Assembly (NCBI GenBank): GCA_023662725.1
Contig: JAMPIL010000003.1
Coordinates: 47,615 to 111,614 of the forward strand
Source of the DNA: Ruminococcus flavefaciens
GTDB taxonomy: Bacteria; Bacillota; Clostridia; Oscillospirales; Ruminococcaceae
Reading direction: 5' to 3'
DNA: 64,000 bases
Numbering within the stretch: position 1 is the stretch's first letter; each line of letters begins with the position of its first letter. The notes beneath the pieces were generated by a model that worked only from the letters and a program-made list of their open reading frames with translations, was not told where the DNA came from and did no database searches. Both the position numbers and the translations under genes were made by a program. Positions 48,636 through 64,000 of this stretch are shown here, piece by piece.

Positions 48636-51600
48636 TCATCTTATAAGCCCTACTGACGCTGCTCCGAACATATCTGAAAGCTCGTTGAAACTTTCGTGGG
48701 ATATATCAATACTAAGACGTTTTTTCGGCATAAGGGTCTTTTTAAGATCTGTAAAATAGAAACAAACCGGAACCGAACCATGAAATCGGCTGCAAAGATC
48801 TATCAATTCCGAGGTAGCCGCCGCTTTTTCAGAACTTATTTTTATACAAAGCTTCATATTGCCGATAAGACGTTCGAATTCACTTTCTTCCGCAATGGAA
48901 CTGCAAATTATGGTAATGCTTTCATCCTTAACGGATATTTTTCCGGTTATGAGAAGAATATTATCCTCTGTCAGTCTTGCGGAAGTTACAGAATACAGAT
49001 CAGGAAAAACAACGGATTCAATCTCTCCTGTTTCATCCGCCAACGATAAAAAGCACATCTTATCGTTTTTCTTTGTTACGTGATTTTTCTTGCTTTGTAC
49101 ACTGCATAGAAGCTTTACCGTATCGCCGTCCTTCAAGCCGGAATTTTCTGAAACTACGCTGCTCACGCTTCTTGTATGCATAAGGGAAGCGATATATGCG
49201 TACTCCGAAAGCGGACTTCCGCTTAAATACATTCCTGCCGCTTCCTTTTCCATTGCAAGAAGTTTTTTTGAATTGTAATCAGGCATATATGGGATTTTAA
49301 TATTCATGTCCTGCGTCTGATCGGATTCAAGAAAATTGAGCTGTCCATCTATAACGTCTCTTGAACCGCTTACGACTTTTTCAAGAATCATTTCATAATG
49401 ATCGAGCATCTGTCTGCGGTTAAGTCCAAGGCCGTCGAAAGCTCCTGCTTTTATAAGATTTTCCAGAGCCTTTTTATTCAGATCACGTCCCTCAAGTCTT
49501 TCACAAAAATCCTGCAAACTCCTGAAGCTTCCATGCATAAGCCTGTCCGCAATTATCCTGTCCGCAAGACCGCTTCCGGCATTTTTGATTGCAAGAAGTC
49601 CGAAATACATCTTATTGCCGCTATATGTGAAACCTTTCATGCTCTTATTTATATCCGGACGCATAATTTCTATGCCTCCTGCACGACATGAATTGATATA
49701 TTCCGCAAGCTTTCCTGCGCTGGACATAACACTCGACATGAGAGCTGCCATATAAATTCCCTTATAGTGATATTTAAGATAAGCAGTCTGATATGCAAGA
49801 TACGCATAAGCGGCAGCGTGGGATTTATTGAACGCATACGATGCAAAACTCACCATTTCGTCAAAAACGGAATTTGCGATATTTTCAGAAATTCCATTGT
49901 CCGCAGCTCCGCTTACAAAGCTTTCACGCTCTTTCAACATAACATCATGTTTTTTCTTAGCCATTGCTCTTCTGACAATATCCGCATGACCATATGAATA
50001 CCCCGCAAGACTGCGGCAGATCTCCATGACCTGCTCCTGATAAACCATTACGCCATAGGTGTCTTCAAGAATATTTTTCAGCAGCGGATGCTTGTAAACG
50101 ACCTTTTCAGGATGTTTCTTATTTTCGATATAGATCGGTATCGACTTCATCGGTCCGGGACGGTAAAGCGAAAGTATCACTATTAAATCTTCAAGTCTTT
50201 CCGGAGCAAGTTCGATCAGACGCTGAGTCATTCCATCGCTTTCAAACTGGAAAACTCCCGATGTATCGCCTGATGAAAGCATTGCATACACATCCGGATC
50301 GTCAACGGGTATTGAATTGATATCAAAATCCGGTTCTGTTCTTTTGATTTCATTTACAGCGTCACGAATTATAGTAAGATTTCTCAAACCGAGAAAGTCC
50401 ATTTTAAGAAGTCCGAGGGATTCAAGGACAGTCATTGTATACTGAGTAACAACAGTTTCATCATTCACCTGAAGAGGTACAATGTCACTGAGCGGAATGG
50501 CTGAAATCACCACTCCTGCCGCATGAGTTGAAGCGTGTCTGGGCATCCCCTCAAGCTGTCTTGCAAGATCGACAAGTCTTTTTACCGATCTGTCTGAACG
50601 ATAAAGCTGAGTAAGCTCCTCCGACTCTGAAAGAGCCTCGTCCAGCTTAGCTCTCGGATCGATCTGCTTTGCAACTTTATCACAAATCTGATAAGAAAGA
50701 CCCAAAACTCTTCCTACGTCACGAACCGCAGCCCTTGCTTTCAGGGTATCGAAAGCAATTATTTCAGAAACATATTCTTCCCCGTATTTACGAACAACGT
50801 AATCCTTAACACGCTGTCTGCCCTCAATACAGAAATCAATGTCGAAATCCGGCATACTAACACGTTCAGGATTAAGAAAACGCTCAAAAAGAAGATTGAA
50901 CTTTATAGGATCAATTCCCGTTATCCCGATGCAGTATGCGCAAAGACTTCCCGCACCCGAACCTCTTCCCGGTCCGACAGGAATATTATTTTCTCTCGCA
51001 TAACGGATAAAATCCCATACGATAAGAAAATAGTCCGTATATCCCATCTGAGTAATTACTGAAAGCTCATACTCCATACGACTGATAACTTCGTGGGACG
51101 GCTCTGCTCCGTATTTTTCGTACATACCTCTGCGGCAAAGCTCCTTGAAATACATATTATTATCGGTTATGCCGCTTATAGTAAACTTTGGCAGCTTTAT
51201 ATTGCCGAATTCAAATTCAACATTACATCTTTCCGCTATCAAGGAAGTATTGCTTACGGCTTCTTCGTGTCCTTTGAAAAGAGCTGACATCTCATCTGCT
51301 GATTTCAGATAAAATTCATTTGTTTCAAAGCTCATTCCATTCGGCTCTTCAAGAGTTTTTCCGGTTTGGATACAAAGCAGAACATTCTGCATTTCCGAAT
51401 CGCTTTTGCTTATATAATGACAGTCATTTGAAGCTGCAAGAGGTATTCCAGTTTCAGCAGAAAGACGGTAAAGAAGCGGCAAAACTTTAAGTTCCTGCTG
51501 AATTCCATGATTCTGAACCTCGATAAAAAAGTTATCCTTACCAAAAATTTCACGGTATTCAAGAGCGACCGATTTCGCTCCCTCATAATTTCCCATTGAA

Positions 51601-52046
51601 ATAAGACGTGGGATCTCTCCGGCAAGACAAGCCGACATACATATAAGTCCGCCGTGATATTTTTTCAGGAGATCTTTATCGACTCTCGGCTTATTATAGA
51701 ATCCTTTAACGCTTGCTATCGAAACAAGTTTTACAAGATTGCGATAACCCTCGTTGTTCTCACAGAGAAGAATCAGATGATACGGCGATGAATCAATCTT
51801 CGGTTCTTTATCAAGATGAGTTCTCGGAGCAACATAAACTTCGCAGCCGATTATTGGTTTTATACCGGATTTTTTCGCTTCATTCCAGAATTCCACAGCT
51901 CCGTACATATTTCCGTGATCTGTTATTGCTGCCGCAGTTTGCCCCAATTCCTTTACACGTTTAAACAGCTCACCTATCCTGCAAGCTCCGTCGAGAAGGC
52001 TGTATTCGGTGTGAATATGAAGATTTACAAATTCATCATTTCTCAT
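48636..52046 (-). CDS. dnaE: DNA polymerase III alpha subunit DnaE
   Basis: A 1136 aa replicative polymerase. The N-terminal PHP domain starts with LHIHTEYSLLDGA (His10, His12). The polymerase catalytic aspartates are in MPDFDIDF near residue 398. The finger, beta-binding and OB-fold regions follow (LLCSVQSKKNHVTKKNDKM in part). The start is the ATG at 52046, with GGAGG at 52055-52059. It overlaps the whiA stop by 11 bp, so translation should be coupled. The long-range order hprK-murB-rapZ-whiA-dnaE-pfkA is typical of Clostridia. Confidence 0.97.
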   Translation of the reverse strand: MRNDEFVNLHIHTEYSLLDGACRIGELFKRVKELGQTAAAITDHGNMYGAVEFWNEAKKSGIKPIIGCEVYVAPRTHLDKEPKIDSSPYHLILLCENNEGYRNLVKLVSIASVKGFYNKPRVDKDLLKKYHGGLICMSACLAGEIPRLISMGNYEGAKSVALEYREIFGKDNFFIEVQNHGIQQELKVLPLLYRLSAETGIPLAASNDCHYISKSDSEMQNVLLCIQTGKTLEEPNGMSFETNEFYLKSADEMSALFKGHEEAVSNTSLIAERCNVEFEFGNIKLPKFTISGITDNNMYFKELCRRGMYEKYGAEPSHEVISRMEYELSVITQMGYTDYFLIVWDFIRYARENNIPVGPGRGSGAGSLCAYCIGITGIDPIKFNLLFERFLNPERVSMPDFDIDFCIEGRQRVKDYVVRKYGEEYVSEIIAFDTLKARAAVRDVGRVLGLSYQICDKVAKQIDPRAKLDEALSESEELTQLYRSDRSVKRLVDLARQLEGMPRHASTHAAGVVISAIPLSDIVPLQVNDETVVTQYTMTVLESLGLLKMDFLGLRNLTIIRDAVNEIKRTEPDFDINSIPVDDPDVYAMLSSGDTSGVFQFESDGMTQRLIELAPERLEDLIVILSLYRPGPMKSIPIYIENKKHPEKVVYKHPLLKNILEDTYGVMVYQEQVMEICRSLAGYSYGHADIVRRAMAKKKHDVMLKERESFVSGAADNGISENIANSVFDEMVSFASYAFNKSHAAAYAYLAYQTAYLKYHYKGIYMAALMSSVMSSAGKLAEYINSCRAGGIEIMRPDINKSMKGFTYSGNKMYFGLLAIKNAGSGLADRIIADRLMHGSFRSLQDFCERLEGRDLNKKALENLIKAGAFDGLGLNRRQMLDHYEMILEKVVSGSRDVIDGQLNFLESDQTQDMNIKIPYMPDYNSKKLLAMEKEAAGMYLSGSPLSEYAYIASLMHTRSVSSVVSENSGLKDGDTVKLLCSVQSKKNHVTKKNDKMCFLSLADETGEIESVVFPDLYSVTSARLTEDNILLITGKISVKDESITIICSSIAEESEFERLIGNMKLCIKISSEKAAATSELIDLCSRFHGSVPVCFYFTDLKKTLMPKKRLSIDISHESFNELSDMFGAASVGLIR

Positions 52047-52953
52047 TGTCAACACCTCCTGCACGAATCTCATCGGCAATTGCAGCAATTTTTTTAAAGC
52101 GGTGGTTCACTCCTGAACGGCTCAACGGAACAGAAAGACTCTCGCCGATCTCCTGTAGGCTCATGTCGATATTTTCAAGACGAAGCTCTGCGATCTCACG
52201 AAGCTCATCTGACAAGCTTTCAAGTCCGTTTGTTTGTGAAATAAGCTTTATATCGTCGATCTGCTTCATTGCTGCTTTAACCACCTTATCAATGTTTGCG
52301 GCATCGCAGTTTGCAATTCTATTCGCCTTATTGCGAACATCCTTATATATTTTCACATTCATAAGCTCCAGCGTACACTGCTGAGCTCCGATAAAAGTAA
52401 GCGTATCTTCAATAGATTCGCTTCCCTTGATATAAACGATATACTGCCCCCTTCTTACGACAGTCTTGGCAGTCACTCCGATATCCCTGAGAAGCATCGC
52501 AAGCTCATTTGCGAGTTGTTCTTCCGGAACCGTAAATTCAAGGTGATATTCCTTTGAAGGATCATTGACGCTTCCGCAGGCAATAAAAATTCCTGCTGTA
52601 AAAACTCCGAGACTATTGGTTGCAATAATCTCGGAATTAATGATTCTTTCGGAAGTTTCAAGCTTATATTTTCTGAAAATATCCCCGATAACCGAAACAT
52701 TTTCAATATCAAATCTGTAAAGAATCGTACCGTTTCTTCTTAAATTTTCACAACACTCCGGTTCAATATGAAAAACGCTTTTAAAAAGTCCGCTGAAAAT
52801 TTCCGCAGACGTCTTGCTTTCAGTCTGAAAGCAGATTTTCTCTTCAGAAAGTGTCTTGCTGAAAAGCAAAATTCCATAGAGGCAGGCAAAACGTTTATCT
52901 TTATCATTTACGGACGAACGGATTTCATTTTTAACATCATTTGAGAAAGATAT
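52036..52953 (-). CDS. whiA: WhiA DNA-binding protein with an apparent ATA start
   Basis: A WhiA homologue (sporulation/cell-division regulator in actinomycetes, conserved in Firmicutes) with an N-terminal LAGLIDADG-like domain and a C-terminal helix-turn-helix (MSLQEIGESLSVPLSRSGV). The first in-frame ATG/GTG/TTG is a TTG at 52869, giving only 277 aa and removing the family's N-terminus. Upstream the same frame reads SFSNDVKNEI, the expected WhiA beginning, directly after an ATA codon at 52951-52953. AGGAG lies 9 nt upstream of that ATA. From there the protein is 305 aa, the normal length. The start codon is therefore odd, or the base is wrong. Confidence 0.85.
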   Translation of the reverse strand: MSFSNDVKNEIRSSVNDKDKRFACLYGILLFSKTLSEEKICFQTESKTSAEIFSGLFKSVFHIEPECCENLRRNGTILYRFDIENVSVIGDIFRKYKLETSERIINSEIIATNSLGVFTAGIFIACGSVNDPSKEYHLEFTVPEEQLANELAMLLRDIGVTAKTVVRRGQYIVYIKGSESIEDTLTFIGAQQCTLELMNVKIYKDVRNKANRIANCDAANIDKVVKAAMKQIDDIKLISQTNGLESLSDELREIAELRLENIDMSLQEIGESLSVPLSRSGVNHRFKKIAAIADEIRAGGVDNEK

Positions 52954-52968
52954 ATAAATCCACTCCTA

Positions 52969-53841
52969 TCAGAACTTTTTATCCTTTGTAATATCACGAT
53001 GATATTTCTGAATTCTGTAATCTTTTTCTCCTAAGTGCTTAGCCATAAGCTCGGCAAAGGTAACTGAACGATGCTTTCCGCCTGTACATCCGAAAGCTAT
53101 AACAAGCTGACTTTTGCCCTCATGAACGTAAAGCGGAATCAGATAATCTATAAGGTCGATAAGCTTATCAAAAAGTTCCTGTGATTGAGAAAATCCCATA
53201 ACATAGTCCCTTACGCAGCTTTCGCATCCGGTATGGTTACGAAGATTTTCTATGTAATAGGGATTAGGCAGGCATCTTACGTCAAAAACGAGATCGCAGT
53301 CGGTTGAAACGCCGTATTTGAATCCGAACGACATGACCTTGATAAGAAGAGAGTCCGAGCTTTTTTCAAGGAATATATCCTTGATCTGCTCTTTTAGCTG
53401 AGAAGCCGTAAGAGAAGTAGTTTCTATGTAATAATCCGCAATTTCCCTGAGCTGAGAAAGCTGCTGCCATTCATAGGCGATCGCTTCGTGGATATTACCG
53501 CTGAATTTTTCCTGTAAGGGATGTTTGCGGCGTGTTTCCTTATATCTCATCATAAGAACATCATGGCTTGCTTCAATAAAAAGAACCTTTACATCAACAT
53601 CTTTATCGTCTTTAAGATGCTGCCATGAACGGAAAATCTCGGCAAACATATCGCCTGTTCTGATATCTACGGCTACGGCTACCTTTGTTATCTCGGTTTC
53701 CGACTGTCGGCAGAGATCAACGAATTTTGAAATAAGTTTCGGAGGAATATTGTCGATACAATAATATCCAATATCTTCCATAACGTCCATAACGCTTGAT
53801 TTTCCTGCGCCGGACATACCTGTTACAATTAAAAGCTGCAT
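52969..53841 (-). CDS. rapZ: RapZ/YvcJ nucleotide-binding protein
   Basis: A 290 aa P-loop protein that binds ATP and GTP; in enterobacteria RapZ is an RNase adaptor controlling GlmS, and Bacillus YvcJ is linked to competence. Walker A GMSGAGKS is at residues 8-15. The C-terminal domain has the family's FGCTGGKHRSV. The start is the ATG at 53841, with GGAG 6 nt upstream; the in-frame ATG at 53853 is less well placed. It lies between murB and whiA. The yvcK gene that often separates rapZ and whiA is absent here. Confidence 0.95.
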   Translation of the reverse strand: MQLLIVTGMSGAGKSSVMDVMEDIGYYCIDNIPPKLISKFVDLCRQSETEITKVAVAVDIRTGDMFAEIFRSWQHLKDDKDVDVKVLFIEASHDVLMMRYKETRRKHPLQEKFSGNIHEAIAYEWQQLSQLREIADYYIETTSLTASQLKEQIKDIFLEKSSDSLLIKVMSFGFKYGVSTDCDLVFDVRCLPNPYYIENLRNHTGCESCVRDYVMGFSQSQELFDKLIDLIDYLIPLYVHEGKSQLVIAFGCTGGKHRSVTFAELMAKHLGEKDYRIQKYHRDITKDKKF

Positions 53842-53876
53842 AAATGTCTCCATTCCCTATGATTTCAAACAAAATC

Positions 53877-54782
53877 CTAACGTAGTATTATCGGTTCAAG
53901 TTCAAGTGTGTAACCTGTTTTTTCTTTTACGATTTCTGTGACTTTTGAACACAGCTCAAGAACATCCGCACAGGTCGCATAGCCCTTGTTTACCACAAAT
54001 CCGCCGTGTTTTTCACTTACCATAGCTCCGCCGCAGGTCATTCCCTTCAAACCGCACTGATCTATGAGCAAAGAAGCATAGCTCCCCTCCGGCCGTTTGA
54101 AAGTGCTTCCTGCACTCGGATATTCAAGCGGCTGTTTAGAGCTTCTTTTAGCCATACATTCGTTCATAGCATTCTTAATCTCCTCGGAATTTCCTTCGTA
54201 AAGCTCCATTGTCACAGAAAGTATCACAAATGAAGAATCCGAAAAAATGCTGTGACGATATGAAAGCTGCATATCCTTGTTTGTTATAGTACGGATATTG
54301 CAGTCGCTGTCGAGATATTCAGCCGAAACGACAATGTCTTTCATTTCGCTGCCGTATGCTCCGGCATTCATATAAAGCGCTCCGCCGACTGTTCCGGGAA
54401 TACCGAAAAGGTTCTCCATTCCGCTTAAAGAGGCCTGCTGCGCATGAACGCAGGCTGAAGCAAGAAGCGCTCCTGCTTCACACCGGATAGTATTCCCCTC
54501 CTGCTTTATATCGGCAAAATCTCCTCCGAACAACAGGATAACTCCATCGAATCCTTCATCAGCAGCTATAATATTGCTTCCCCTTCCGATGATGCCGTAA
54601 CGGACATCGTTCTGCTTCATATATTTTATCAGTTCAACCGCGGAATTTGCAGAATTGACGCTTATAAGCGCTCTGCACGGACCGCCAAAACGAAAAGTGA
54701 TATATTCGCTTAACGAACATTCCGGAGTTATCCGGCATCCAAGCTGTTTGCACAGTTGAGTAAGTTCCTCTGTATTGATCAT
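53877..54782 (-). CDS. murB: UDP-N-acetylenolpyruvoylglucosamine reductase
   Basis: A 301 aa flavoenzyme that reduces UDP-GlcNAc-enolpyruvate to UDP-MurNAc for peptidoglycan synthesis. FAD-binding segments FRFGGPCRAL and GIIGRGSNII are clear. The catalytic Ser is in YPSAGSTFKRPEG, as in the YSAGSxF-type MurB, and a Glu lies near the C-terminus. It is in an operon between hprK and rapZ. Confidence 0.96.
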   Translation of the reverse strand: MINTEELTQLCKQLGCRITPECSLSEYITFRFGGPCRALISVNSANSAVELIKYMKQNDVRYGIIGRGSNIIAADEGFDGVILLFGGDFADIKQEGNTIRCEAGALLASACVHAQQASLSGMENLFGIPGTVGGALYMNAGAYGSEMKDIVVSAEYLDSDCNIRTITNKDMQLSYRHSIFSDSSFVILSVTMELYEGNSEEIKNAMNECMAKRSSKQPLEYPSAGSTFKRPEGSYASLLIDQCGLKGMTCGGAMVSEKHGGFVVNKGYATCADVLELCSKVTEIVKEKTGYTLELEPIILR

Positions 54783-54830
54783 TATGTCCCTCCAAAAGTT
54801 AATAATTAAATATGTAATTCAACTTCCGGA

Positions 54831-55790
54831 TCAAAACGCTTCATAATCACGGACAACTTCTTTTGCGTCAGACTCCATTCCAAGTCTGTTAAGAAGCTCC
54901 TGAGCAGCGTTGTAGCCCATTTTTTTCTGTCTGTTATTCATAGCGGCAACTTCAAGGATAACCGCAAGATTTCGTCCCGGCTTTACAGGGATAGTAAGCG
55001 ATGGAACTTTTACTCCAAGAAGAGATACAAATTCCGTATCAACACCCATTCTGTCGTAGATTTTCTCAGGATTCCACTGTTCAAGTTCTACGACAAGATC
55101 GAGTTTTTCGGTCATTTTAACAGCTCCGATACCAAAAAGGCGACGGGCATTTATAATTCCGATACCTCTTAATTCAAGGAAGTGCCGGATATTATCTGGC
55201 GAGCTTCCGACAAGACTTATATTCGACACTTTTCGTATCTCAACAGCGTCGTCGGCAACAAGACGATGACCTCTTTTAACAAGTTCGATAGCCGTTTCAC
55301 TTTTTCCGACTCCTGATTCTCCCGTTATGAAAACTCCCTCGCCGTAGATTTCGATAAGTACGCCATGACGTGTGATTCTCGGAGCCAACGTAAGATTGAG
55401 ATATGCGATAAGTCCGGACATAAAGTTAGAAGTACTTTCCTTGCTTCTTAAAAGCGGCACTTCATACTCCTTTGCAAGCTCAAGCATTTCAGCAAAATAC
55501 GGAAGTTCTCTTGTAATTATAAGAGCCGGTATCCTTTGTGAAAAAAGAAGCTGGAGTCTTTCTCTTCTTGTTTTTTCATCAATTGTTGAAAGATAAGCAA
55601 ATTCCATTTTACCTATGATCTGTATGCGTTCAGGATTAAAATATTCATAAAAACCCATAAGCTGCAAGCCCGGTCTGTTTACATCGTTTTCATCGATCAT
55701 AACATCGTTTGCATCTTTATGAATATAAATAACCTCAAGTTTAAACTCGTCTATTACTCTCTGAAGAGATACCTTAAAATTTTCAGCCAT
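54831..55790 (-). CDS. hprK: HPr kinase/phosphorylase
   Basis: A 319 aa bifunctional enzyme that phosphorylates Ser46 of HPr and removes the phosphate again, setting carbon catabolite control in Firmicutes. Walker A GESGVGKS is at residues 157-164; the catalytic His is in RHGVL (His142). The C-terminal signature RRLFGIGAVKM is also present. There are no signs of decay. The next gene downstream is murB. Confidence 0.96.
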   Translation of the reverse strand: MAENFKVSLQRVIDEFKLEVIYIHKDANDVMIDENDVNRPGLQLMGFYEYFNPERIQIIGKMEFAYLSTIDEKTRRERLQLLFSQRIPALIITRELPYFAEMLELAKEYEVPLLRSKESTSNFMSGLIAYLNLTLAPRITRHGVLIEIYGEGVFITGESGVGKSETAIELVKRGHRLVADDAVEIRKVSNISLVGSSPDNIRHFLELRGIGIINARRLFGIGAVKMTEKLDLVVELEQWNPEKIYDRMGVDTEFVSLLGVKVPSLTIPVKPGRNLAVILEVAAMNNRQKKMGYNAAQELLNRLGMESDAKEVVRDYEAF

Positions 55791-55832
55791 TTTTTTCTCC
55801 GTTCTCCGGCTTCGACCGGAATTTAAAATTAA

Positions 55833-57047
55833 TTATCCTATCACAAATGATTTATAGCCCTTTTCCTCAAGTTCGTCCCTTGCATCAAGAATCTCAGACA
55901 TATTTGCCGAATCGCCTGAAATCCTCACAGCAACATTGAAATCAGCCAGAGAATCCTCGACCATATCAATAGCCTTGAGCACTTTATCGGAAGCTTTTCC
56001 TGTAAACTCGTAAACGGTATCCTTGGAATAAACTCCATTGCTGAGTTCATCAATGTCAATGTTGAGGACTACAGTCTTCACATTCAGCAGCATAGGCTGC
56101 AAAATATCGTTATTGCCCTTTATAAGCTCCGCTGCCGAAACCTCAATAAACATTGCCGAACCATTGGAAAGAATCTTATCGTTAAAAAGATTTGCCGCAG
56201 AGGTCATTGCTCTCGCTCTTCCACCGGATGCAAGTTCTGGATCGAGCATATCAAGATCAGATTGGCGGAAATTCGGGAAAATAAAGTCCGAACACACAAC
56301 TTTTTCAAATCCTGAGGAAGAAACTTCACTAACGATATCAGAAATATAATTCAGTGATGTCTGAGAATACGGCGTAGTCCAGGGTTTTCCTCCGGCATTG
56401 TAATCATCGTCTATCCACTGCTCATCGGTGTTATAAGTACGATAACCGGCGTTTCTGTCAATAACGGGAAGAAGGTTATCATTGAAAGTGCTTACGATCG
56501 CTGCAGGTTTATATCCGGCATTTTGAATTGCTGTTGCTATTTCCTGCAAAGTAAGCATATTCTGAAAAGCCTGCGCACTTGAAGCGTAATAAACAGAACT
56601 TGAGTAATAAACTCCGCCGCCGCTCACTTTCAAAGGAACTTCTATATATTCGATATTCTGTCCGGTCGGGAGTCGGTCGAGCGCAAGTTTCAGCGTGTCA
56701 GCATTCATAAGATCCGATTCTTTTAATGCCGCCGCCATGTAAGTTTCAGAATTAATATTCTGATGAATATATGGATTTTCCGGATTGGCATTATCAGTAG
56801 TCATTCCACTCACAAGAGAATTTTCCTCTGCCGAAGTTGTTGCCTGCACTGAAACAGAGGTATCCTGATCGCCTTTTTTCTTATTGTAATTGATTATCGG
56901 TTCAGCGACACTGTATCCGATAAAACCGATTCCGCCTATGAGAAGAATTGAAAGACCAACTGAAAATGCTTTTCCCACAGGACTTTTTCCGTAATAATTT
57001 TTTTCTTTGGTCTTATAGATTTTCCTTCCTTTATTTTTTATTTTCAT
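55833..57047 (-). CDS. DUF4015-like putative glycoside hydrolase, membrane-anchored
   Basis: A 404 aa protein: a basic N-terminus, a single membrane segment (about residues 28-50), then an extracytoplasmic domain. The pattern GKPWTTPYSQTSLNYISDI followed by GFEKVVCSDFIFPNF resembles DUF4015, a putative TIM-barrel hydrolase family (usual motif ending DYVRFP). The match is partial, so assignment is tentative. It lies 32 bp after the RnfA-like gene and 42 bp before hprK, within the large minus-strand operon. Confidence 0.6.
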   Translation of the reverse strand: MKIKNKGRKIYKTKEKNYYGKSPVGKAFSVGLSILLIGGIGFIGYSVAEPIINYNKKKGDQDTSVSVQATTSAEENSLVSGMTTDNANPENPYIHQNINSETYMAAALKESDLMNADTLKLALDRLPTGQNIEYIEVPLKVSGGGVYYSSSVYYASSAQAFQNMLTLQEIATAIQNAGYKPAAIVSTFNDNLLPVIDRNAGYRTYNTDEQWIDDDYNAGGKPWTTPYSQTSLNYISDIVSEVSSSGFEKVVCSDFIFPNFRQSDLDMLDPELASGGRARAMTSAANLFNDKILSNGSAMFIEVSAAELIKGNNDILQPMLLNVKTVVLNIDIDELSNGVYSKDTVYEFTGKASDKVLKAIDMVEDSLADFNVAVRISGDSANMSEILDARDELEEKGYKSFVIG

Positions 57048-57079
57048 TTTTATCTCCCACTTACAGTTTTACGAATTCT

Positions 57080-57652
57080 CTATTTCAACGTATAAACTGC
57101 CATTGATATAATTCCAAGATATACAAGCATAGCCGGAAATCCTCGGAATGAAGCCGGAACCTTTGCAGAATTAAGCTTTCGGTAAGCTGCCGTAAGAATA
57201 AGGGAAGCTAAAATAAAGCCAAATCCTGCTTCAAGACCTGCCGCAGCATAGCTTTTCAGATTCATAAAAGAAGAATCGTCTGCGGCTCTCTGGCTTATTG
57301 TAAAAAGGGTTCCCATAACAGCGCAGTTAAAAGCGGATATGTGTATATATTTTCTTGATTTTTCAAATTTTTCTCTACTGATCAAAAAAAGTGCAGAAAG
57401 AAAAATCACATATAGTATTCCAATCAAAGTCGTGTAAATAAGCAGTTTGAGGTCGGAATATTTTGCCGGAAGCAGACTATCCGCAAAATATGCTCCCATC
57501 GAACCAAAAACTGTAAAAACAGTTATAACAAAAGCTGTTCTTAAAAGATTTCTTCTGCTGTTTGCGGCGATGAACAGCGTACTTGTTCCAAGCGCCTGAG
57601 TGAGTATCAGATTTGCCGCAAGCAGCGCAATAAAATCATTTATCAGAAACAT
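57080..57652 (-). CDS. RnfA-like membrane protein missing one cluster Cys
   Basis: A 190 aa protein with about six membrane segments, aligning with RnfA/NqrE: AANLILTQALG at the start and KVPASFRGFPAMLVYLGI at the end correspond to the family's first and last signatures. In Rnf and Na+-NQR, RnfA and RnfE share an intramembrane [2Fe-2S] cluster held by two Cys each. Here the first site reads LGTST (Ser24) instead of LGLCP, and the second Cys is kept (FNCAVMG, Cys110). The start is the ATG at 57652; the longer ORF from 57691 lies within the RnfE-like gene. The stop of rnfE overlaps by 17 bp. Confidence 0.85.
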   Translation of the reverse strand: MFLINDFIALLAANLILTQALGTSTLFIAANSRRNLLRTAFVITVFTVFGSMGAYFADSLLPAKYSDLKLLIYTTLIGILYVIFLSALFLISREKFEKSRKYIHISAFNCAVMGTLFTISQRAADDSSFMNLKSYAAAGLEAGFGFILASLILTAAYRKLNSAKVPASFRGFPAMLVYLGIISMAVYTLK

Positions 57653-58271
57653 CCGCCTCACCTCTTTTATCGTTATAATTATGATACGCAACCGATCTTA
57701 TTTTTCGGTAAACTCCGCACATTATGCCAAGGAAAATGAATCCGCCGAAAGGCTGTGAAAGTCCGCTTATAGTAGTATCTATATCCACGATTTTACCGTT
57801 TATAGTACCAAATGCAAAAAGCTCACGGATAAAGCCTGTTATTAGCATGACAGCATCGAACCCAAGAATGTAGAAAAATAGTGAAGCAATCATTTTTCCA
57901 CGTTTCATGCGGAATAATTTCGCCTCCGACTGAAAAACGATAAGCGAATTTACAGCGAGCAAAGGATAATATATCCCGATTCTTGTTATTGAATCCGGAA
58001 AGAACTCATTTGCAGCCATTCTGACCGGTATATAGACGATAGACGAAATAAGAGCATAAATTATGACTTTTAATGCATAAGGAAGCTTTCTCGGCACAAA
58101 CGATGAAACCACAACTGACAAGAAAGTTATGGAATTAAAAGCGTATATCAGAGCTTCGGCATTCTTCAATGTGTTTCCGCAAATTATTACCGGTGAAATT
58201 ACCATTAGAGATGAAAGAACGATATTTTCTCCCAATATTCCGCCAAAAACTGTAGATTTTCGGTTATTCAC
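57636..58271 (-). CDS. RnfE-like membrane protein missing both cluster Cys
   Basis: A 211 aa polytopic protein matching RnfE/NqrD: ENIVLSSLMVISPVI, then PLLAVNSLIVFQSEA and FIRELFAFGT. The two Cys that would complete the [2Fe-2S] cluster are replaced: Ser26 where the family has the Cys of GLCPLLA, and Ser109 where it has the Cys of TNCIVVGRAEA. A Cys31 nearby is at a different position. Six membrane segments are plausible. It overlaps rnfD by 4 bp (ATGA) and the RnfA-like gene by 17 bp. Confidence 0.83.
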   Translation of the reverse strand: MNNRKSTVFGGILGENIVLSSLMVISPVIICGNTLKNAEALIYAFNSITFLSVVVSSFVPRKLPYALKVIIYALISSIVYIPVRMAANEFFPDSITRIGIYYPLLAVNSLIVFQSEAKLFRMKRGKMIASLFFYILGFDAVMLITGFIRELFAFGTINGKIVDIDTTISGLSQPFGGFIFLGIMCGVYRKIRSVAYHNYNDKRGEADVSDK

Positions 58272-59257
58272 TCTGAATCAGCCTCCTTCCCGTCGGCATC
58301 ATCGGATTCCGGCTCAGGACTCAGATCACTTTCATATGCAAGTTCGATTTTCTTTTCGAGGTTCCTGAATCCGAGAGCAACAGGAGTAAACAGAATCGAA
58401 ATTATAATTATAACGTTTTCCTTTGCCGTAGTGAGAAGCACTATATAAGAGAAAAAAGCTATAAACAATCCATAAAAAAATGCGTAATATTCTCTTTTTG
58501 GAGCAATTCTTTTATCGGAAATAATGTAAATCGCCGCAAAAAGCACCATATTAGTCACAAGTGAATATTTAACGCTGTCAGCAGCAGTCAGTGAGGCGGA
58601 AACCGGCATGATATAGGCAAGAAATCCCGTACCCAAAATTGTTCCGATAAAAGCTCCTGCTGAAATGTCTCTTCGGAAGATGAGTATAACTGCCGCTACT
58701 ATCAGGAGAAGTATACTCGCTGAACCGGCAGATCCGCTGAAGTTGCCAAGCAGTATCTCAAAATCGGTATAGTCCATTTTTCCCGTTGTATTATAGACAT
58801 AAGAAGCTGAACTTACAAGACCGTCCGGCATATCAAACAATCCTGTTCTGACATGAGGTTCCGGATAAAGAAGCAATTTTTTTTCCCATGAAGCAAGCAT
58901 AAAAACATATGCTGCCACTGCCGGTGAAAAAATCATATTCTTTCTTCCGCCAAAAATATTTTTGGCTGCCGTAACCGCAAATACACAAGCAATCGCCGCT
59001 ATTTTATAATCCATGACCGCAGGCATCATAAGAGAAATTATCAAAGCATCAGAAGTACACATAAGATCATCCGCAGTAAAACTTTTGTGCATAAGTCTCA
59101 AACTTATCATCTCTGTTAAAAGAGAAACTGCCACACATACTCCACCAAGAACGAGTGAACGTATACCATAATAAAAATAAGACATAAGCTCTAAAGCAAG
59201 AAGCGTTATAGTTATATCTATCCAGATAAGACGCTCTTTTCTGGCTTTTTTCAGCAT
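58268..59257 (-). CDS. RnfD-like membrane protein with degraded flavinylation site
   Basis: A 329 aa protein related to RnfD/NqrB: N-terminal DITITLLALELMSYFYYGIR (in part), MIFSPAVAAYVFM, and a second signature GSAGSAS (175-181, family GSIGETS). In RnfD a Thr in (D)xxSGAT carries covalent FMN. The matching stretch here is DGLVSSAS (145-152), so the Thr is Ser152 and the Gly is lost. The C-terminal tail (about 306-329) is unusually acidic. It overlaps the rpe stop by 7 bp, so it is coupled to rpe. Confidence 0.82.
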   Translation of the reverse strand: MLKKARKERLIWIDITITLLALELMSYFYYGIRSLVLGGVCVAVSLLTEMISLRLMHKSFTADDLMCTSDALIISLMMPAVMDYKIAAIACVFAVTAAKNIFGGRKNMIFSPAVAAYVFMLASWEKKLLLYPEPHVRTGLFDMPDGLVSSASYVYNTTGKMDYTDFEILLGNFSGSAGSASILLLIVAAVILIFRRDISAGAFIGTILGTGFLAYIMPVSASLTAADSVKYSLVTNMVLFAAIYIISDKRIAPKREYYAFFYGLFIAFFSYIVLLTTAKENVIIIISILFTPVALGFRNLEKKIELAYESDLSPEPESDDADGKEADSE

Positions 59258-59910
59258 GATCCGGCGCTCCTCAGCTTTTCGGCAGCCTCAGACATATATT
59301 CAGCTTTAAAAAGATAACTTCCCGAAACAAGCACGTTTGCTCCGGCGTCAATGACGTCTTTTGCCGTTGAATCGTTTATTCCGCCGTCAACCTGCAAATG
59401 CGTATCAAGTCCGAGTTCTTCTATTTTTTCGTGTATCTTTTTTACCTTGTCAACAGTTTCGTAAATAAAACTCTGACCTCCGAATCCCGGTTCAACGGTC
59501 ATAACAAGAACCATATCCAACTCCGGAAGATACGGGAATATCTCCTCGGCTGGAGTTGCTGGCTTTATTGCAAGAGCAGCTTTTGCTCCGGCAGATTTTA
59601 TTGCCTTTATCGTTTCCGAAACGCTGCTTTCGCTTTCAACATGGAACGAAATATAATCCGCTCCGCAGATTGCAAATCGTTCGGCATATTTAAGCGGATC
59701 CGTTATCATGAGATGAACATCGAGTATCAATCCGGTTTTCTTTCTGACCTGTTCCAGAATCGGAAGACCGTACGTTATATTGTTCACGAAAACTCCGTCC
59801 ATAACATCGAAATGCAGCATTTCTATACCGCTGTTTTCAAGCTTTTTTATTTCCGTTTCAAGATTCAGCATATCCGCACTCAATACAGACGCCGATACCA
59901 TATTATTCAA
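59251..59910 (-). CDS. rpe: Ribulose-phosphate 3-epimerase
   Basis: A 219 aa TIM-barrel epimerase interconverting ribulose-5-phosphate and xylulose-5-phosphate in the pentose phosphate pathway. SASVLSADML, LHFDVMDGVFV (metal-site His and Asp) and VEPGFGGQ with DGGIN are all present. The ORF opens with a TTG at 59910; an ATG at 59901 is the alternative, and the ribosome binding site (AAGGAAG) does not decide. A canonical promoter lies about 50 bp upstream, and the gene leads the long operon that continues into rnfD-E-A. Confidence 0.95.
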   Translation of the reverse strand: MNNMVSASVLSADMLNLETEIKKLENSGIEMLHFDVMDGVFVNNITYGLPILEQVRKKTGLILDVHLMITDPLKYAERFAICGADYISFHVESESSVSETIKAIKSAGAKAALAIKPATPAEEIFPYLPELDMVLVMTVEPGFGGQSFIYETVDKVKKIHEKIEELGLDTHLQVDGGINDSTAKDVIDAGANVLVSGSYLFKAEYMSEAAEKLRSAGSC

Positions 59911-59960
59911 TTTACCACTTCTTCCTTAGTATTGCAATTCAAATATTTTATACACTTTTT

Positions 59961-59989
59961 ATTATATAATATTTCTTCAATTTCGTCAA
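59961..59989 (-). promoter_or_regulatory. Promoter of the rpe operon
   Basis: TTGACG (59984-59989), 17 bp, perfect TATAAT (59961-59966). Confidence 0.75.
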
Positions 59990-60034
59990 TATGCTAAAAT
60001 TGTTTTTTCTTTTATTTTTATCTATAAACAACGA

Positions 60035-60072
60035 AAAAGCCACCTAATATTCAAGTTCATCAAATGGCTTTT
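60035..60072 (-). terminator. Terminator after the SHOCT remnant
   Basis: AAAAGCCA (60035-60042) pairs with TGGCTTTT (60065-60072), followed on the minus strand by a TTTTTC tract. Confidence 0.65.
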
Positions 60073-60079
60073 GTCGGAA

Positions 60080-60215
60080 TTAAATTTTATTGATAAATGA
60101 TTTGCGTTTTTCCTCAAATTTCTCTGGAGTAATAAGTCCCTGATCAAGGAATTTTTTAGGTAAGAAGAGATTTCATTGTATCGTTATCGTATGATATTAA
60201 AATTTTCTCATCATT
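60080..60215 (-). pseudogene. SHOCT-domain gene remnant
   Basis: On the minus strand the final 27 codons read LPKKFLDQGLITPEKFEEKR and then KSFINKI, matching the short SHOCT motif (GxITxEEFExKK) found at protein C-termini. Upstream the homologous frame shifts: ILISYDNDTMKSLL is read one frame off and runs into a stop. No start codon is in either usable frame, although AGGAG lies at 60220-60224. The gene is probably broken by a small frameshift. Confidence 0.5.
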
Positions 60216-60322
60216 TGTACTCCTGTCAGATTTACACTTGACCGTTCTTTTTAGTATAATAAAACAAAAAGCAGTGATAATTGTGCATAAATTTAATTAA
60301 AACAATCTCTCAAATCTAATTA

Positions 60323-60352
60323 GAATATTGTTCAAGCTCTCTAACATACTAT
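60323..60352 (+). promoter_or_regulatory. SigE-type promoter of sigK
   Basis: GAATATT (60323-60329), 15 bp spacer, CATACTAT (60345-60352). This matches the mother-cell SigE consensus (KMATATT, 14-15 bp, CATACAMT) except for one -10 base. In Bacillus, sigK is transcribed by SigE, so the site fits the gene. Confidence 0.6.
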
Positions 60353-60383
60353 TTTATATCATTTTTTCCGGAGGTATGTATTT

Positions 60384-60719
60384 ATGCTGCTTGAACTGCT
60401 CAGAAATTTCTTTTTTTTCGCTCTTCACGTTGAAAATAACACGGTTTTTCCAAAGCCGCTTTCCAAAAAAGAAGAGGAAGAATGCTTTTTAAAAATGTCG
60501 GAAGGAGATAAAAATGCTAAAAATATGCTTATCGAACATAACCTCAGACTCGTTGCTCATATCGCTAAAAAATATTCAGCCAGTCTCGCCGATCAGGATG
60601 AGCTCATCTCTATAGGCACAATAGGTCTTATTAAAGCCGTTTCAACTTTTGATTACTCTAAAGGAGCTAAGTTTGCTACTTATGCAAGCAGATGTATTGA
60701 AAATGCTACCCTATCATAA
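60384..60719 (+). pseudogene. sigK: Truncated sporulation sigma factor SigK
   Basis: The 111 codons match the N-terminal half of pro-SigK, the late mother-cell sigma factor: a hydrophobic pro-sequence (1-20), FPKPLSKKEEEECFLKM, the core NMLIEHNLRLVAHIAKK, DLxSIGTIGLIKA-like DELISIGTIGLIKA and KFATYASRCIEN. Identity stops after Asn107; the normal continuation EILM is replaced by ATLS and a stop. In the original frame after the stop, NKKQNKLLLEN may be a decayed trace of the next region, with further stops. Regions 3 and 4 are not found. RBS (GGAGG) and a SigE-like promoter are kept. Confidence 0.75.
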
Positions 60720-60837
60720 CGGCTCTAAGAAACCAACAAGAAGCAAAACAAGCTCCTCTTGGAAAACACATCAAAAAGTAAATGAAAACTTCTATATTGT
60801 ATATCGAATTCAATATGATAAAATTATTTATACACCT

Positions 60838-61317
60838 TTGTATATCCATTCTTTTAAATTTCTCACTTGCCGACATTTAGTAAAATCTCAAAGATTTCTA
60901 TTTGAAAATCCCAATCCTGAAAAGCTTGCAACTGTATCAGATAAGCTAAAATGGCATAGAGTAAACAATGGGCTTTTACAACGTGATGTGGCTAATGCTA
61001 TCAACGTTAATAGAACTACCTATGAAAGATATGAAAAAAACATACTGGAGGCTTATCCGCTAAACAAACTTAAAAAAGTTGCTAAACTTTTTGGAATTGA
61101 TGTAACTGTATTACTTGATGATTATAATTTGTTTCTCTATTATGATCAAGGAGAACAAATAAAAAAACTGCGTAAGTTATTAAAACTCACGCAGCCTGAA
61201 TTTGCAAAATATATAGGTGTTCCTCTTGGCGCGCTAAAAAAATGGGAGCAGAATAAAACTTTTATGCCCAAAAATATATTCAAAAAATGCAAATATATTT
61301 TTCAACAATACTTCTAA
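60838..61317 (+). CDS. Protein with two helix-turn-helix domains, start uncertain
   Basis: The frame encodes two XRE-like helix-turn-helix segments: KLKWHRVNNGLLQRDVANAI with TTYERYE, and a second QIKKLRKLLKLTQPEFAKYI with GALKKWEQNK. LLDDYNLFLY joins them. Similar double-HTH proteins are common in gut clostridia, near mobile or accessory DNA. No ATG or GTG lies in frame before the first domain; the TTG at 60838 is only a placeholder and has no ribosome binding site. The upstream open frame overlaps sigK out of phase. The gene may be 5'-truncated. A+T content is visibly higher than in neighbours. Confidence 0.5.
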   Translation: MYIHSFKFLTCRHLVKSQRFLFENPNPEKLATVSDKLKWHRVNNGLLQRDVANAINVNRTTYERYEKNILEAYPLNKLKKVAKLFGIDVTVLLDDYNLFLYYDQGEQIKKLRKLLKLTQPEFAKYIGVPLGALKKWEQNKTFMPKNIFKKCKYIFQQYF

Positions 61318-61343
61318 ATTGTTAAATAATTATATCCGATATA

Positions 61344-62618
61344 TCAGGTGTAATTTTTTTCTATTTTTGCATTCAGATTAAGCTCTTCAAGGGTTTTAAA
61401 AAACTCATCTTCAAGAGTAGATTCTTCAATACTTCTTATCATATTGATATAAAGCTTATTTTTATATGATAAAATTCCGCAGTTATTAACACCCTTAAGC
61501 TGAACACCAAGAGTAAAATCAAACCTTTCTATATAAGGTTCCATTTCTTTTGGTATTTTGATAACACCTAGATTTGACATTGTAAGACAGGATTTCTTCT
61601 CGCCAATGCTGTTATAGATCATTTTCATTCCGAAATTTTTAACAAACAAAGGAAGGCTTTTAAGGAATGCATTTTTTTCGGCTTTTACATTAGCGGTTAT
61701 ACGCATCTGCATTTGTTTTTTTGTAAGGAGAAGTTTCATCTGATGATGGATATTCTGAAGAATTTCATCGAATGTAAAGTCTCCTGTATTTGCCTTTATA
61801 CCAGGAGTAATATAAAGAACAAAATTTCTCATCGAATTGCTTTCAAAATAATTTCTGAGATTAACCGGTACAAGAATCTTGACAGGTTTCTGCTTTTCAG
61901 TTACAGCCGTTTCTCTTTTCTGAATTTTCATGGCGGAATAAATCATTGCAGAAACAAGAAAAGCCGTAAGAGTGACGTTTTCCTTTTTTGCGACTTTAAG
62001 TGCCTCTTCTGTGTTTATTACGCATGTCGTGTGATAAAGAAAGCCGTCCGTTCTTGTGCCGTGAACAACATAAGAATTTTTTTCACGTCTTGATTTAGAA
62101 ACTTTGCCCTCGTTTTTCAGATAGCTGTCTTCAAGTTCGTTTTTATCCGGTGTTTCGTTGATATCATAAACGCCCGATACAGTGGGAATTTCAGCACCGT
62201 TTTTTTGTTTAAGGTATTCTGCAAGAAGAGTCTTTAAAAAAATAAGTCCTCCGTTTCCGTCTGTAAGAGAATGAAAAAATTCTACGGCAATTGTCCTTTC
62301 GCTGTATAAAACTCGGAAAGCACATTTTTTTACATCTGCCTTTGTCATAACGGAACAGGGGAACGAAGTGTCGGGAACTATCTCTGGCATTTTTTCAATT
62401 TCTTCAAGATGATACCAGAAAAAATTTTTTCTCAACCCCATAGCAATAGAGGGAAAACGCTTTATTACAACACCGAGAGAAGACTGCAATACCGCAGGGT
62501 CGACCTTTTCTTCAAGCCCCGCCGAAATCCGAAAAACATTGCTCCATTTTTTCGTCCTTACAGCCGGATATATCTTGGCGGCGTTGTCCAGATTAAGACG
62601 CAAGCGCTTTTCAGCCAT
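61344..62618 (-). CDS. Condensation-domain-like acyltransferase
   Basis: A 424 aa protein of the CoA-dependent acyltransferase superfamily (alcohol acetyltransferase / condensation domain type). The active-site HxxxDG is seen as FHSLTDGNGG, and the later SNLGVIKIP matches the usual DFG-like second landmark region. The start is the ATG at 62618 with AGGAGG 9 nt upstream; the TTG at 62624 is too close to that site. It overlaps the esterase gene by 8 bp. The substrate is unknown; it could acylate an alcohol, lipid or sugar. Confidence 0.8.
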   Translation of the reverse strand: MAEKRLRLNLDNAAKIYPAVRTKKWSNVFRISAGLEEKVDPAVLQSSLGVVIKRFPSIAMGLRKNFFWYHLEEIEKMPEIVPDTSFPCSVMTKADVKKCAFRVLYSERTIAVEFFHSLTDGNGGLIFLKTLLAEYLKQKNGAEIPTVSGVYDINETPDKNELEDSYLKNEGKVSKSRREKNSYVVHGTRTDGFLYHTTCVINTEEALKVAKKENVTLTAFLVSAMIYSAMKIQKRETAVTEKQKPVKILVPVNLRNYFESNSMRNFVLYITPGIKANTGDFTFDEILQNIHHQMKLLLTKKQMQMRITANVKAEKNAFLKSLPLFVKNFGMKMIYNSIGEKKSCLTMSNLGVIKIPKEMEPYIERFDFTLGVQLKGVNNCGILSYKNKLYINMIRSIEESTLEDEFFKTLEELNLNAKIEKNYT

Positions 62619-63501
62619 TATCAAGCACCTCCTTTAAAAAAATGTTTATATTTACGTAATCTTCACTGAATTCTTTAAGATTAAAAAGAACATATATATG
62701 CCACATTTCAGGTGCTACATGAATCTGAGATTTACAGCCGCATGCAAGCAGTTTTTTGTGAATATCAAGAGCGTCACTGAGCATAATCTCTGCACCGCCC
62801 GCAAAAATAATCGAAGGCGGAAGACCATCCAAATCTCCGAATATGGGCGAAACAAACTTGTTTTTTATATCGTTAGTATAACACCCTGCAAAGAAAGCGA
62901 GCCGTTCTTTCGTCATGGAGGGATCGTTTTTCCTGTTATATTTATAAGAATCCCCCGATGATGTAAGGTCTGTCCATGGAGAGATGGAAATTATGCCTGT
63001 CGGCATGGGCATTGCATTTTCTTTGATTTTCAGTGCAAGCGAATAGACCAGTCCTCCCCCTGCTGATTCTCCGCAAAGAACGATATCATTAGGAGAATAT
63101 CCCTCAGAAAGAAGATAGCCGTAGACTTCATATGCATCGTCAAGAGCCGCAGGGAATTTGTTTTCAGGTGCCAGCCGATATTCAACACACAGTACCTTTA
63201 TATGATTGAAAGCGGCCAGAATGGTCGCAAAACCCCTTGCATAACTCATTTTCCCCGATACATATCCACCTCCGTGAAGATAAAGGATAACTCCACTCAT
63301 ATCCGTCCTTTTCGGTATAACAAATTCAGCTGAAAAATCGATGGATTCAACTTGTTTATATATCACGTCTTCTCTGTATTTATGAGACATGAGCATCCCC
63401 AGTTTATCTTGCATATTCCGAGAATTTTCTACAGAACACACACTGTTTAATTTTGTTGCCAGTGCAACCTGAGATTTTATCAGTTTTGTAAAAAAATCCA
63501 T
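62611..63501 (-). CDS. Alpha/beta hydrolase of the HSL/GDXG esterase family
   Basis: A 296 aa esterase-type hydrolase. The oxyanion motif HGGGY (in LYLHGGGYVSGK), the nucleophile GESAGG (Ser), the YRLAPENKFPAALDDA segment and a C-terminal His (EMWHIYVLF) are all present. It is cytoplasmic, with no signal peptide. Translational overlap with the acyltransferase gene suggests that one removes and one adds acyl groups on related compounds; this is inference. It has a strong promoter with an operator-like palindrome. Confidence 0.9.
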   Translation of the reverse strand: MDFFTKLIKSQVALATKLNSVCSVENSRNMQDKLGMLMSHKYREDVIYKQVESIDFSAEFVIPKRTDMSGVILYLHGGGYVSGKMSYARGFATILAAFNHIKVLCVEYRLAPENKFPAALDDAYEVYGYLLSEGYSPNDIVLCGESAGGGLVYSLALKIKENAMPMPTGIISISPWTDLTSSGDSYKYNRKNDPSMTKERLAFFAGCYTNDIKNKFVSPIFGDLDGLPPSIIFAGGAEIMLSDALDIHKKLLACGCKSQIHVAPEMWHIYVLFNLKEFSEDYVNINIFLKEVLDNG

Positions 63502-63514
63502 TCTTCCCCCCTTC

Positions 63515-63542
63515 TACAATAAAATTAATATATTTTATTGTA
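63515..63542 (-). promoter_or_regulatory. Operator-like palindrome over the esterase -10 region
   Basis: TACAATAAAAT (63515-63525) and ATTTTATTGTA (63532-63542) form a perfect 11 bp inverted repeat with a 6 bp centre. It includes the -10 box and the transcription start, as a TetR- or MarR-type operator would. Confidence 0.55.
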
Positions 63543-63565
63543 ACATTTTTTTCTACTATTGTCAA
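63537..63565 (-). promoter_or_regulatory. Promoter of the esterase-acyltransferase operon
   Basis: Perfect TTGACA (63560-63565), 17 bp, TACAAT (63537-63542). Confidence 0.8.
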
Positions 63566-63580
63566 GAGTAAATACAAATT

Positions 63581-63711
63581 TAGAATAAAGTAATTTTAGT
63601 ACTACAATAGAAATTAAACATAATTAAGAAAAAAAGAGAGATAAACAAAACTCTGATAGAATAAAGTAATCTCACAAAATTCAGCATCAGAAGAAAGAAG
63701 GTCTATCTCTC
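63581..63711. repeat. Direct and inverted repeats in an A+T-rich gap
   Basis: The 14-mer TAGAATAAAGTAAT occurs at 63581-63594 and again at 63657-63670. GAGAGATA (63636-63643) and TATCTCTC (63704-63711) are inverted around the second copy. No ORF or promoter with a clear target was seen in 63566-63771; it may be the end of a mobile element. Confidence 0.45.
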
Positions 63712-63771
63712 ATAAATAGTATAATACAAGATATGAAATTGTATTTTAACATCTGGATTATGTAGTCACTT

Positions 63772-63936
63772 CTATTTCATATTATCACATATCCTTTTCA
63801 TAATATTCTTGACTTCTTCTTCGGACAATTGCAACGTTTGAATTTTATTTACTACATATTGGGCATGGAATTTTGCTACACGTCTTTTCAATTCTTGAAT
63901 ATTATTTTCATCTTTTGGATAGTGAACAATTGCCAC
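63772..63936 (-). CDS. Small uncharacterised protein of 54 aa
   Basis: A small ORF not recognised as a named family: VAIVHYPKDENNIQELKRRV, then AKFHAQYVVNKIQTL and EEEVKNIMKRICDNMK. Charged helical composition is evident, with no membrane segment. The start is the GTG at 63936 with AGGTGG (63945-63950) 8 nt upstream; a TTG at 63939 is the alternative. Another minus-strand ORF appears to end at 63963, so the small gene may follow a gene beyond the window. Its style suggests mobile-element cargo. Confidence 0.55.
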   Translation of the reverse strand: MAIVHYPKDENNIQELKRRVAKFHAQYVVNKIQTLQLSEEEVKNIMKRICDNMK

Positions 63937-64000
63937 CAATTTTACCACCTACTATAATAAAATTAGTCGTTAAATCCATGACAAGCCAGCCATGGTTTAC

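Follow-up and report, generated by a model that had tools for sequence, protein, structure and literature searches.

A 64,000-nucleotide stretch of a Ruminococcus flavefaciens genome (hereafter the window; contig JAMPIL010000003.1) carries three overlapping minus-strand genes for homologues of RnfD, RnfE and RnfA, here called D, E and A, followed by the gene for a DUF4015-like membrane-anchored protein, H. As judged from sequence comparison, D-E-A-H is a second Rnf-derived membrane module present in many genera of the window's family. Three of the four cysteines that hold the cluster shared by A and E in Rnf are missing from every cassette sequence aligned, and several residues that gate the ion path of Rnf are kept in the window's lineage. 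The features of the locus, in the direction of transcription, are as follows.

59961..59989, minus strand: sigma-70-like promoter candidate, TTGACG-17-TATAAT, upstream of rpe (consensus scan, 11/12 matches).
59251..59910, minus strand: rpe, ribulose-phosphate 3-epimerase (TIGR01163, 255.5 bits), the conserved upstream neighbour.
58268..59257, minus strand: D, RnfD/NqrB homologue (PF03116, 128.5 bits), SSAS at 149-152.
57636..58271, minus strand: E, RnfE/NqrD homologue (PF02508, 79.2 bits), Ser26 and Ser109 in place of cluster Cys.
57080..57652 from the ATG, minus strand: A, RnfA/NqrE homologue (PF02508, 59.2 bits on a frame of 203 amino acids).
55833..57047, minus strand: H, DUF4015-like membrane-anchored protein (PF13200, 26.8 bits; cut-off 27).

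D, E and A are intact open reading frames (ORFs) with Pfam scores above the cut-offs, which bears out the assignment made in an earlier, sequence-only reading of this DNA; the NCBIfam rnfD, rnfE and rnfA models match them far below their own cut-offs. Overlaps measure 7 nt between rpe and D, 4 nt between D and E and 17 nt between E and A, and H starts 32 nt past A. An alternative TTG start for A lies upstream at 57691, and the ATG start is preceded by a Shine-Dalgarno-like AGAGGTGAGG. From the D start to the H start the minus strand has a single terminator-like match, which is located within A and has 3 of 9 pairs G-C. Promoter-like matches in the region number 15 against 14.0 expected in shuffles, and the candidate upstream of rpe is only suggestive. 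The genes had also been described as coupled by overlap to rpe; the overlap is real and rpe is a neighbour in 38 of the 40 family loci defined below, but nothing here shows a functional link.

As that reading had stated, rnfB, rnfC and rnfG do not adjoin the cassette on either side. No rnfB-like gene was seen by eye among ORFs of at least 80 amino acids at 50,000-64,000, where no profile search for rnfB was made. The flavin mononucleotide (FMN)-bind domain of RnfG has no match on the window's contig, the genome's matches lying on contigs C11 and C13. The sole strong RnfC match in the genome is a canonical copy, accompanied by two weak ferredoxin-like matches of 94-100 amino acids.

Two sets of loci were compared with the window. 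The “close loci” are the best 80 of 179 confirmed places in named genomes; 73 are titled Ruminococcus and 7 otherwise (Oscillospiraceae, Clostridiales, Clostridia, Bacillota, Alistipes). The “family loci” are 40 loci read across the family, 20 near the top of the D ranking and 20 chosen, and they divide into 27 without and 13 with an rnfC-like gene (C), with readable denominators of 26-27 and 12-13 for D, E and A and of 23 and 12 for H. Loci L010-L039, of which L010 is the window itself, were used for site alignment. Canonical controls were the 29 non-window loci of a phylum-wide search, in which proteins were chosen within each locus by their Cys motifs and no locus was dropped. Residue tables list the six commonest residues per column. 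The nearest relative of A, 93% identical, comes from a roe deer caecum genome, with R. flavefaciens strains next.

Gene order is strongly conserved. D-E-A is contiguous in 38 of the 40 family loci and rpe adjoins it in 38; H comes next after A in 35, and a C gene stands ahead of D in 13. Among the close loci H follows A in 79 of 80, the one miss falling at a contig end. BLAST with canonical RnfB and RnfG found neither gene in the 40 family loci or the 80 close loci. The sequence-only reading had proposed a search for D-E-A cassettes devoid of B, C and G; D-E-A free of nearby B and G recurs in 38 of 40 family loci, and a divergent C is present in 13 of the 40. Both exceptions were picked for their small genomes. 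In G102, C-D-E and rpe-A are on separate contigs, rpe-A at a contig end, and in G087 only D was found in the locus. In many family loci a MecA-family gene on the opposite strand lies between rpe and C or D (L042 9060-9635, L047 8977-9552, L057 10980-11549, others); none was found there by BLAST in the 80 close loci. E is split over two frames in a metagenome-assembled locus (L130 2500-3148), through sequencing error or as a broken gene.

The A profile, which does not tell cassette from canonical RnfA, matched 213 of 398 genomes of the phylum, and the 30 loci fetched were the window plus 29 with canonical Cys, with no further cassette among them. The H profile matched 89 of 243 genomes of the class; of 30 loci read with flanks of about 1.5 kb, A and E adjoin H in only 3, all of which belong to the window's family. 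The cassette may be restricted to this family, but both searches are biased towards canonical RnfA and free-standing DUF4015 and do not prove that it is absent elsewhere. Within the family, E matched 181 and D 184 of 197 genomes; both queries also match canonical proteins, so these figures give no count of cassette genomes. Four genomes of 0.7-0.9 Mb (G068, G160, G087 and G174; loci L224, L225, L226 and L227) hold a single PF02508 protein of the cassette E type, no A, and one D match each. An E homodimer in place of the A/E pair is possible in these four.

To locate the cluster sites, the proteins were aligned with the canonical subunits of the same genome and with those of family loci L010-L039, which placed the sites at A Ser24, A Cys110, E Ser26 and E Ser109 (Ser37 and Cys123 in A if numbered from the TTG). 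Alignment with Acetobacterium woodii RnfA and RnfE (PDB 9eri) gave the same four columns; E and A aligned nearly full-length and D over much of its length. The proposal that three of the four cluster Cys are replaced by Ser, leaving only Cys110 of A, therefore stands. Cys is absent at A C25 (0/26 loci without C, 0/12 with C, 0/80 close loci), at E C25 (0/26, 0/13 and 0/77) and at E C108 (0/26, 0/13 and 0/78), and is present at each of these sites in 29/29 canonical controls. The fourth site, A C113, is Cys in 18/26 loci without C, 6/12 with C, 80/80 close loci and 29/29 controls. The close loci show an invariant pattern, with A-Ser and A-Cys each in 80/80 and the two E-Ser sites in 77/77 and 78/78 readable sequences (of 79). 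Serine as a cluster ligand is conceivable in the close loci alone; outside them E C25 is Ala, Thr, Gly, Val or Pro, with Ser in a single case, and because it is mostly non-Ser there, a ligated cluster is unlikely as the shared function.

The flavinylation motif of RnfD is altered as well. D reads SSAS at 149-152 vs. SSAT in the genome's own RnfD, in agreement with the earlier description, and residue 152 is Ser in 76 of 77 readable close loci (of 78; one Thr). These counts are taken from a motif alignment, as the T156 column sits in a misaligned, gapped loop.

We compared the cassette with what is reported of gating in Rnf. A. woodii RnfA/E is reported to switch between inward and outward states around the cluster, with RnfE L103 among its gates and with a pair formed by R67 and E115. 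This rocker switch is the proposed route by which RnfA/E carries Na+, and RnfD is reported to carry none (PMC11889175); a review describes the same alternating access (PMC12174285), and the identity of the Na+-carrying subunit of Rnf and NQR has been disputed (PMC11889175). RnfE R67A and L103G abolished autotrophic growth of A. woodii and left 10 and 11% activity, T110G of RnfA also prevented growth, and E115A of RnfE and T111G of RnfA grew normally at 20 mM Na+ (PMC11889175).

Lys68, Leu104 and Glu116 of the window's E correspond to gating residues R67, L103 and E115, and A keeps Asn109 at the ion path; E88, Q85, T110 and T111 of A are lost. Loci without C have Arg or Lys at R67 in 26/26, Glu at E115 in 22/26, Leu at L103 in 20/26 and Asn at A N112 in 26/26; the corresponding figures for the close loci are 78/78, 72/78, 78/78 and 80/80. 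His104 of the window's A replaces Pro107 of A. woodii RnfA, as it does in 21/26 loci without C, 0/12 with C and 80/80 close loci. The close-loci search pattern included A N112 and this His, so that both 80/80 counts arise partly by construction.

The module does not end at A. The sequence-only reading took D-E-A as the unit, and its three genes are real, but it left out H, which belongs to the module as judged by adjacency and co-evolution. H has one N-terminal hydrophobic helix (30-48) by hydropathy, and the remainder is probably an extracytoplasmic domain. Four H relatives that were scanned score 60.3, 96.1, 122.6 and 147.1 bits against PF13200, all over the cut-off that the window copy narrowly misses, and a profile of the H family aligns with the solved structure 4s1a, an uncharacterised protein (E 4.4e-26; the sole solved relative found at E < 0.001). 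Co-evolution was measured in the 66 of 80 close loci that have all eight genes, as partial distance correlations given four neighbours (rpe, hprK, murB and rapZ). Values were 0.71 for D-H, 0.51 for A-H and 0.48 for E-H, and none of 2000 permutations reached the D-H correlation. H tracks D, E and A about as well as, or better than, these track one another (0.44-0.54), and its correlations with the four neighbours are 0.15-0.27. One of these, hprK, is on the far side of H, and in 57 of 76 loci the distance from the end of H to its start is within 400 nt.

H also appears to have lost a functional motif. Free-standing DUF4015 proteins (32 proteins, 27 loci) keep the Asp of FDYxRFP in 32/32 and the Arg in 31/32; the Asp may be catalytic. 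The window's H reads CSDFIFP at this position. Among cassette H proteins the Asp is kept in 10/12 loci with C, 2/23 without C and 0/79 close loci, and the Arg in 0/12, 0/23 and 2/79. H may thus not be an active enzyme, because both residues are lost; with the cluster sites gone from D-E-A, both halves of the module have lost their apparent chemistry. The literature located under the name DUF4015 reports, in its accessible parts, no assay of the domain. In another genome of the same class (L180) the gene immediately upstream of a free-standing DUF4015 gene encodes an RnfB-like polyferredoxin of 330 amino acids, by chance or as a hint of how the partnership originated.

We next consider the relation of the cassette to canonical Rnf. 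A complete rnfCDGEAB is present on contig C11 of the same genome, and its subunits are the genome's only PF03116 and PF02508 proteins besides those of the cassette. Five drafts (INDEPENDENCE), G177, G194, G102, G166 and G076 (97, 93, 94, 84 and 83% complete), hold just two PF02508 proteins, both of the cassette, and four of the five (all but G177) show no FMN-bind protein. The canonical complex is probably not an obligate partner, because these drafts show cassette genes and no canonical Rnf pair; the check for rnf genes elsewhere in the genome thus found a full set, with obligate partnership disfavoured. The cassette is not universally required: G135, a genome of the same genus that is 98% complete, shows no canonical Rnf and no cassette. 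The window's genome also encodes an intact ApbE. A second ApbE match (L234, G000:C1:34655-35122) covers 149 model positions with one in-frame stop and is perhaps a remnant.

The ratio of nonsynonymous to synonymous substitution (dN/dS) in nine close pairs is about 0.02-0.24 for D, E, A and H where computable, which shows, at the level of sequence, that all four genes are under purifying selection. The values come from stop-to-stop frames with some extra upstream codons; for D and H one of the nine pairs gave no value, and several dS values are above 1.

In a tree of A and E columns, all 44 cassette sequences included form one clade apart from 31 canonical ones (support 0.87), separated by a long branch of 1.42. 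Most loci with C branch before the other cassettes, with inner supports of 0.2 to 1.0. C looks ancestral and then lost, perhaps more than once, and the cassette ancestor probably also had an rnfC-like gene. Eleven divergent C proteins (L018, L021, L027, L028, L031, L032, L033, L034, L036, L037 and L039) have both CxxCxxCxxxC [4Fe-4S] motifs and lack the glycine-rich GGxGxPTH of canonical RnfC; Complex1_51K was over its cut-off in one of two scanned (L031, 40.8 bits). Divergent C is possibly an RnfC subtype.

Taken together, these data lead us to favour, tentatively and somewhat short of calling it probable, a redox-free D-E-A core derived from Rnf that works with H by alternating access on an ion gradient. 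E and A would still form a pseudo-symmetric dimer that switches between inward and outward states, and because no cluster is there to be reduced, the switch would be driven by the downhill movement of Na+ or H+. A-Asn109, E-Asn108 and the three Ser would line the ion site, with Lys68 and Glu116 as the gate above it. H, which like RnfG has a single anchoring helix, would take the place of RnfG as a mobile extracytoplasmic arm on D and E/A, and the cycle would either carry a small solute through the membrane or transmit force or a signal to H on the cell surface. The substrate of such transport is a guess. The fuller proposal, that a redox pump core became a redox-free, ion-gradient-driven machine whose RnfG arm was replaced by a surface pseudo-glycosidase, we hold with less assurance. 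For this lineage a redox-free core with H is the simplest account, and ion movement through the cluster-free E/A dimer is most likely, because the gates are kept where the electron path is not.

Several observations weigh against the redox-free account. D retains Asp248, the counterpart of the riboflavin ligand D249 in A. woodii RnfD, and a D free of redox chemistry would have no need of it. In loci with C, R67 is kept in 7/13 and E115 in only 4/13, so that the clade as a whole does not share this ion path. Among the ion-path residues of A in loci without C, E88 survives in 0/26, T111 has become Phe in 26/26 and T110 is kept in 8/26, and Q85 is not among the six commonest residues of its column. 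A Lys32, an RnfB contact, is still Lys or Arg in 18/26 of these loci. In the co-evolution test, control pairs for which no interaction is expected also correlate when two genes are removed (hprK-murB 0.39, murB-rapZ 0.32).

As the main alternative, which we consider unlikely, redox chemistry would persist in the flavins of D alone. Here D would bind riboflavin through Asp248 and perhaps FMN on Ser152, the [4Fe-4S] centres of C would exchange electrons with this riboflavin in loci with C, and E/A would be structural only. The D249 equivalent is kept in 20/27 loci without C (with 4 more Glu), 12/13 with C and 78/78 close loci. Asn is found at D N123 in 13/13 loci with C, but in only 11/27 without C and in none of the close loci (Ser in 75/78). 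Conservation of Ser at the flavinylation site among the close loci, the intact ApbE and the flavinylation of Ser in other ApbE substrates (PMC10979944) would allow a modified Ser152, but the surrounding motif is not conserved beyond the close loci. The [4Fe-4S] motifs of the 11 divergent C proteins and the Complex1_51K match would suit an electron partner, but these proteins are without GGxGxPTH, and C is missing here and in 27 of 40 family loci; FMN-bind was likewise not found at the locus or in four of the five cassette-only genomes. The earlier view of a repurposed ion-pump scaffold without electron transfer accordingly needs qualification: the known electron route is gone, and purifying selection and the cassette-only drafts support repurposing, but the wording was too strong for D, where Asp248 is kept and Ser152 might be modified.

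A further alternative, which we rate as equally improbable, makes H the worker: much as in ExbB/ExbD or MotA/MotB, ion flow through D-E-A would energise H, which would exert a push or pull on the cell wall or bind within it. The single N-terminal helix of H and its co-evolution, strongest with D, are consistent with this, but the loss of the FDYxRFP Asp and Arg suggests that H is perhaps no active enzyme. That the paralogues join or replace canonical Rnf subunits as regulators or alternative subunits is very improbable: a complete rnfCDGEAB is at hand in the same genome, but the five drafts have only the cassette pair, four of them without FMN-bind, and the RnfB contact R154 of A has gone from 26/26 loci without C, though 9/12 loci with C keep it. 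Motif loss and the long branch to canonical Rnf might suggest a decaying duplicate under relaxed constraint, which the low dN/dS, the invariant Ser/Cys pattern and gene order kept over many genera make barely credible.

The cassette compares with known systems as follows. The complete RnfABCDGE complex resembles it in E, A, much of D and the kept gates; the cassette differs in having no adjoining RnfB or RnfG, in an RnfC that is absent here and divergent elsewhere, in the loss of three cluster Cys and the RnfD Thr, and in its added DUF4015-like partner. For Na+-translocating NADH:quinone oxidoreductase (NQR), too, an origin by rnf duplication and loss of rnfB has been proposed (PMC4014512); it retains cluster and flavins (PMC12174285), whereas the cassette retains one cluster Cys and has no FMN-bind match on its contig. 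Among published partial systems, the NQR/RNF-like clusters of Meheust et al. 2021 (PMC8238504) come closest; they likewise have a partial Rnf set and an RnfD-like subunit without the flavinylated Thr (PMC8238504, PMC10979944). Their partners differ: RnfD is fused to an NAD-binding domain and accompanied by an RnfG-like FMN protein, giving two apparent subunits, mainly in Actinobacteria and the candidate phyla radiation (PMC8238504, PMC10979944). H is related to free-standing DUF4015 (PF13200) through 4s1a and, in loci without C, differs from it in the loss of the FDYxRFP Asp and Arg. No description of an rpe-D-E-A-DUF4015 cassette was found in the literature searched, which covered few subscription papers.

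A natural A/E pair with gates and no cluster constitutes a test: if it moves ions, A/E alone is an ion path. If the redox-free account is true, a respiratory complex has been re-used without redox chemistry, the Rnf A/E rocker switch can run without its cluster, and many genera of gut Ruminococcus relatives have a transporter or envelope energiser of a new class. Because the cassette is common in the family (38 of 40 loci read), predictions of Rnf energy conservation there that rest on one D, E or A gene could be misled.

Elsewhere in the window, an ORF at 60384-60719 resembles the sporulation sigma factor SigK over its N-terminal half only (TIGR02846, 6-114 of 227). It ends about where the skin element splits sigK in Bacillus. 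An ORF at 60649-61317 overlaps it and contains two repressor-like helix-turn-helix stretches, and the locus may represent a sigK gene interrupted by an element.

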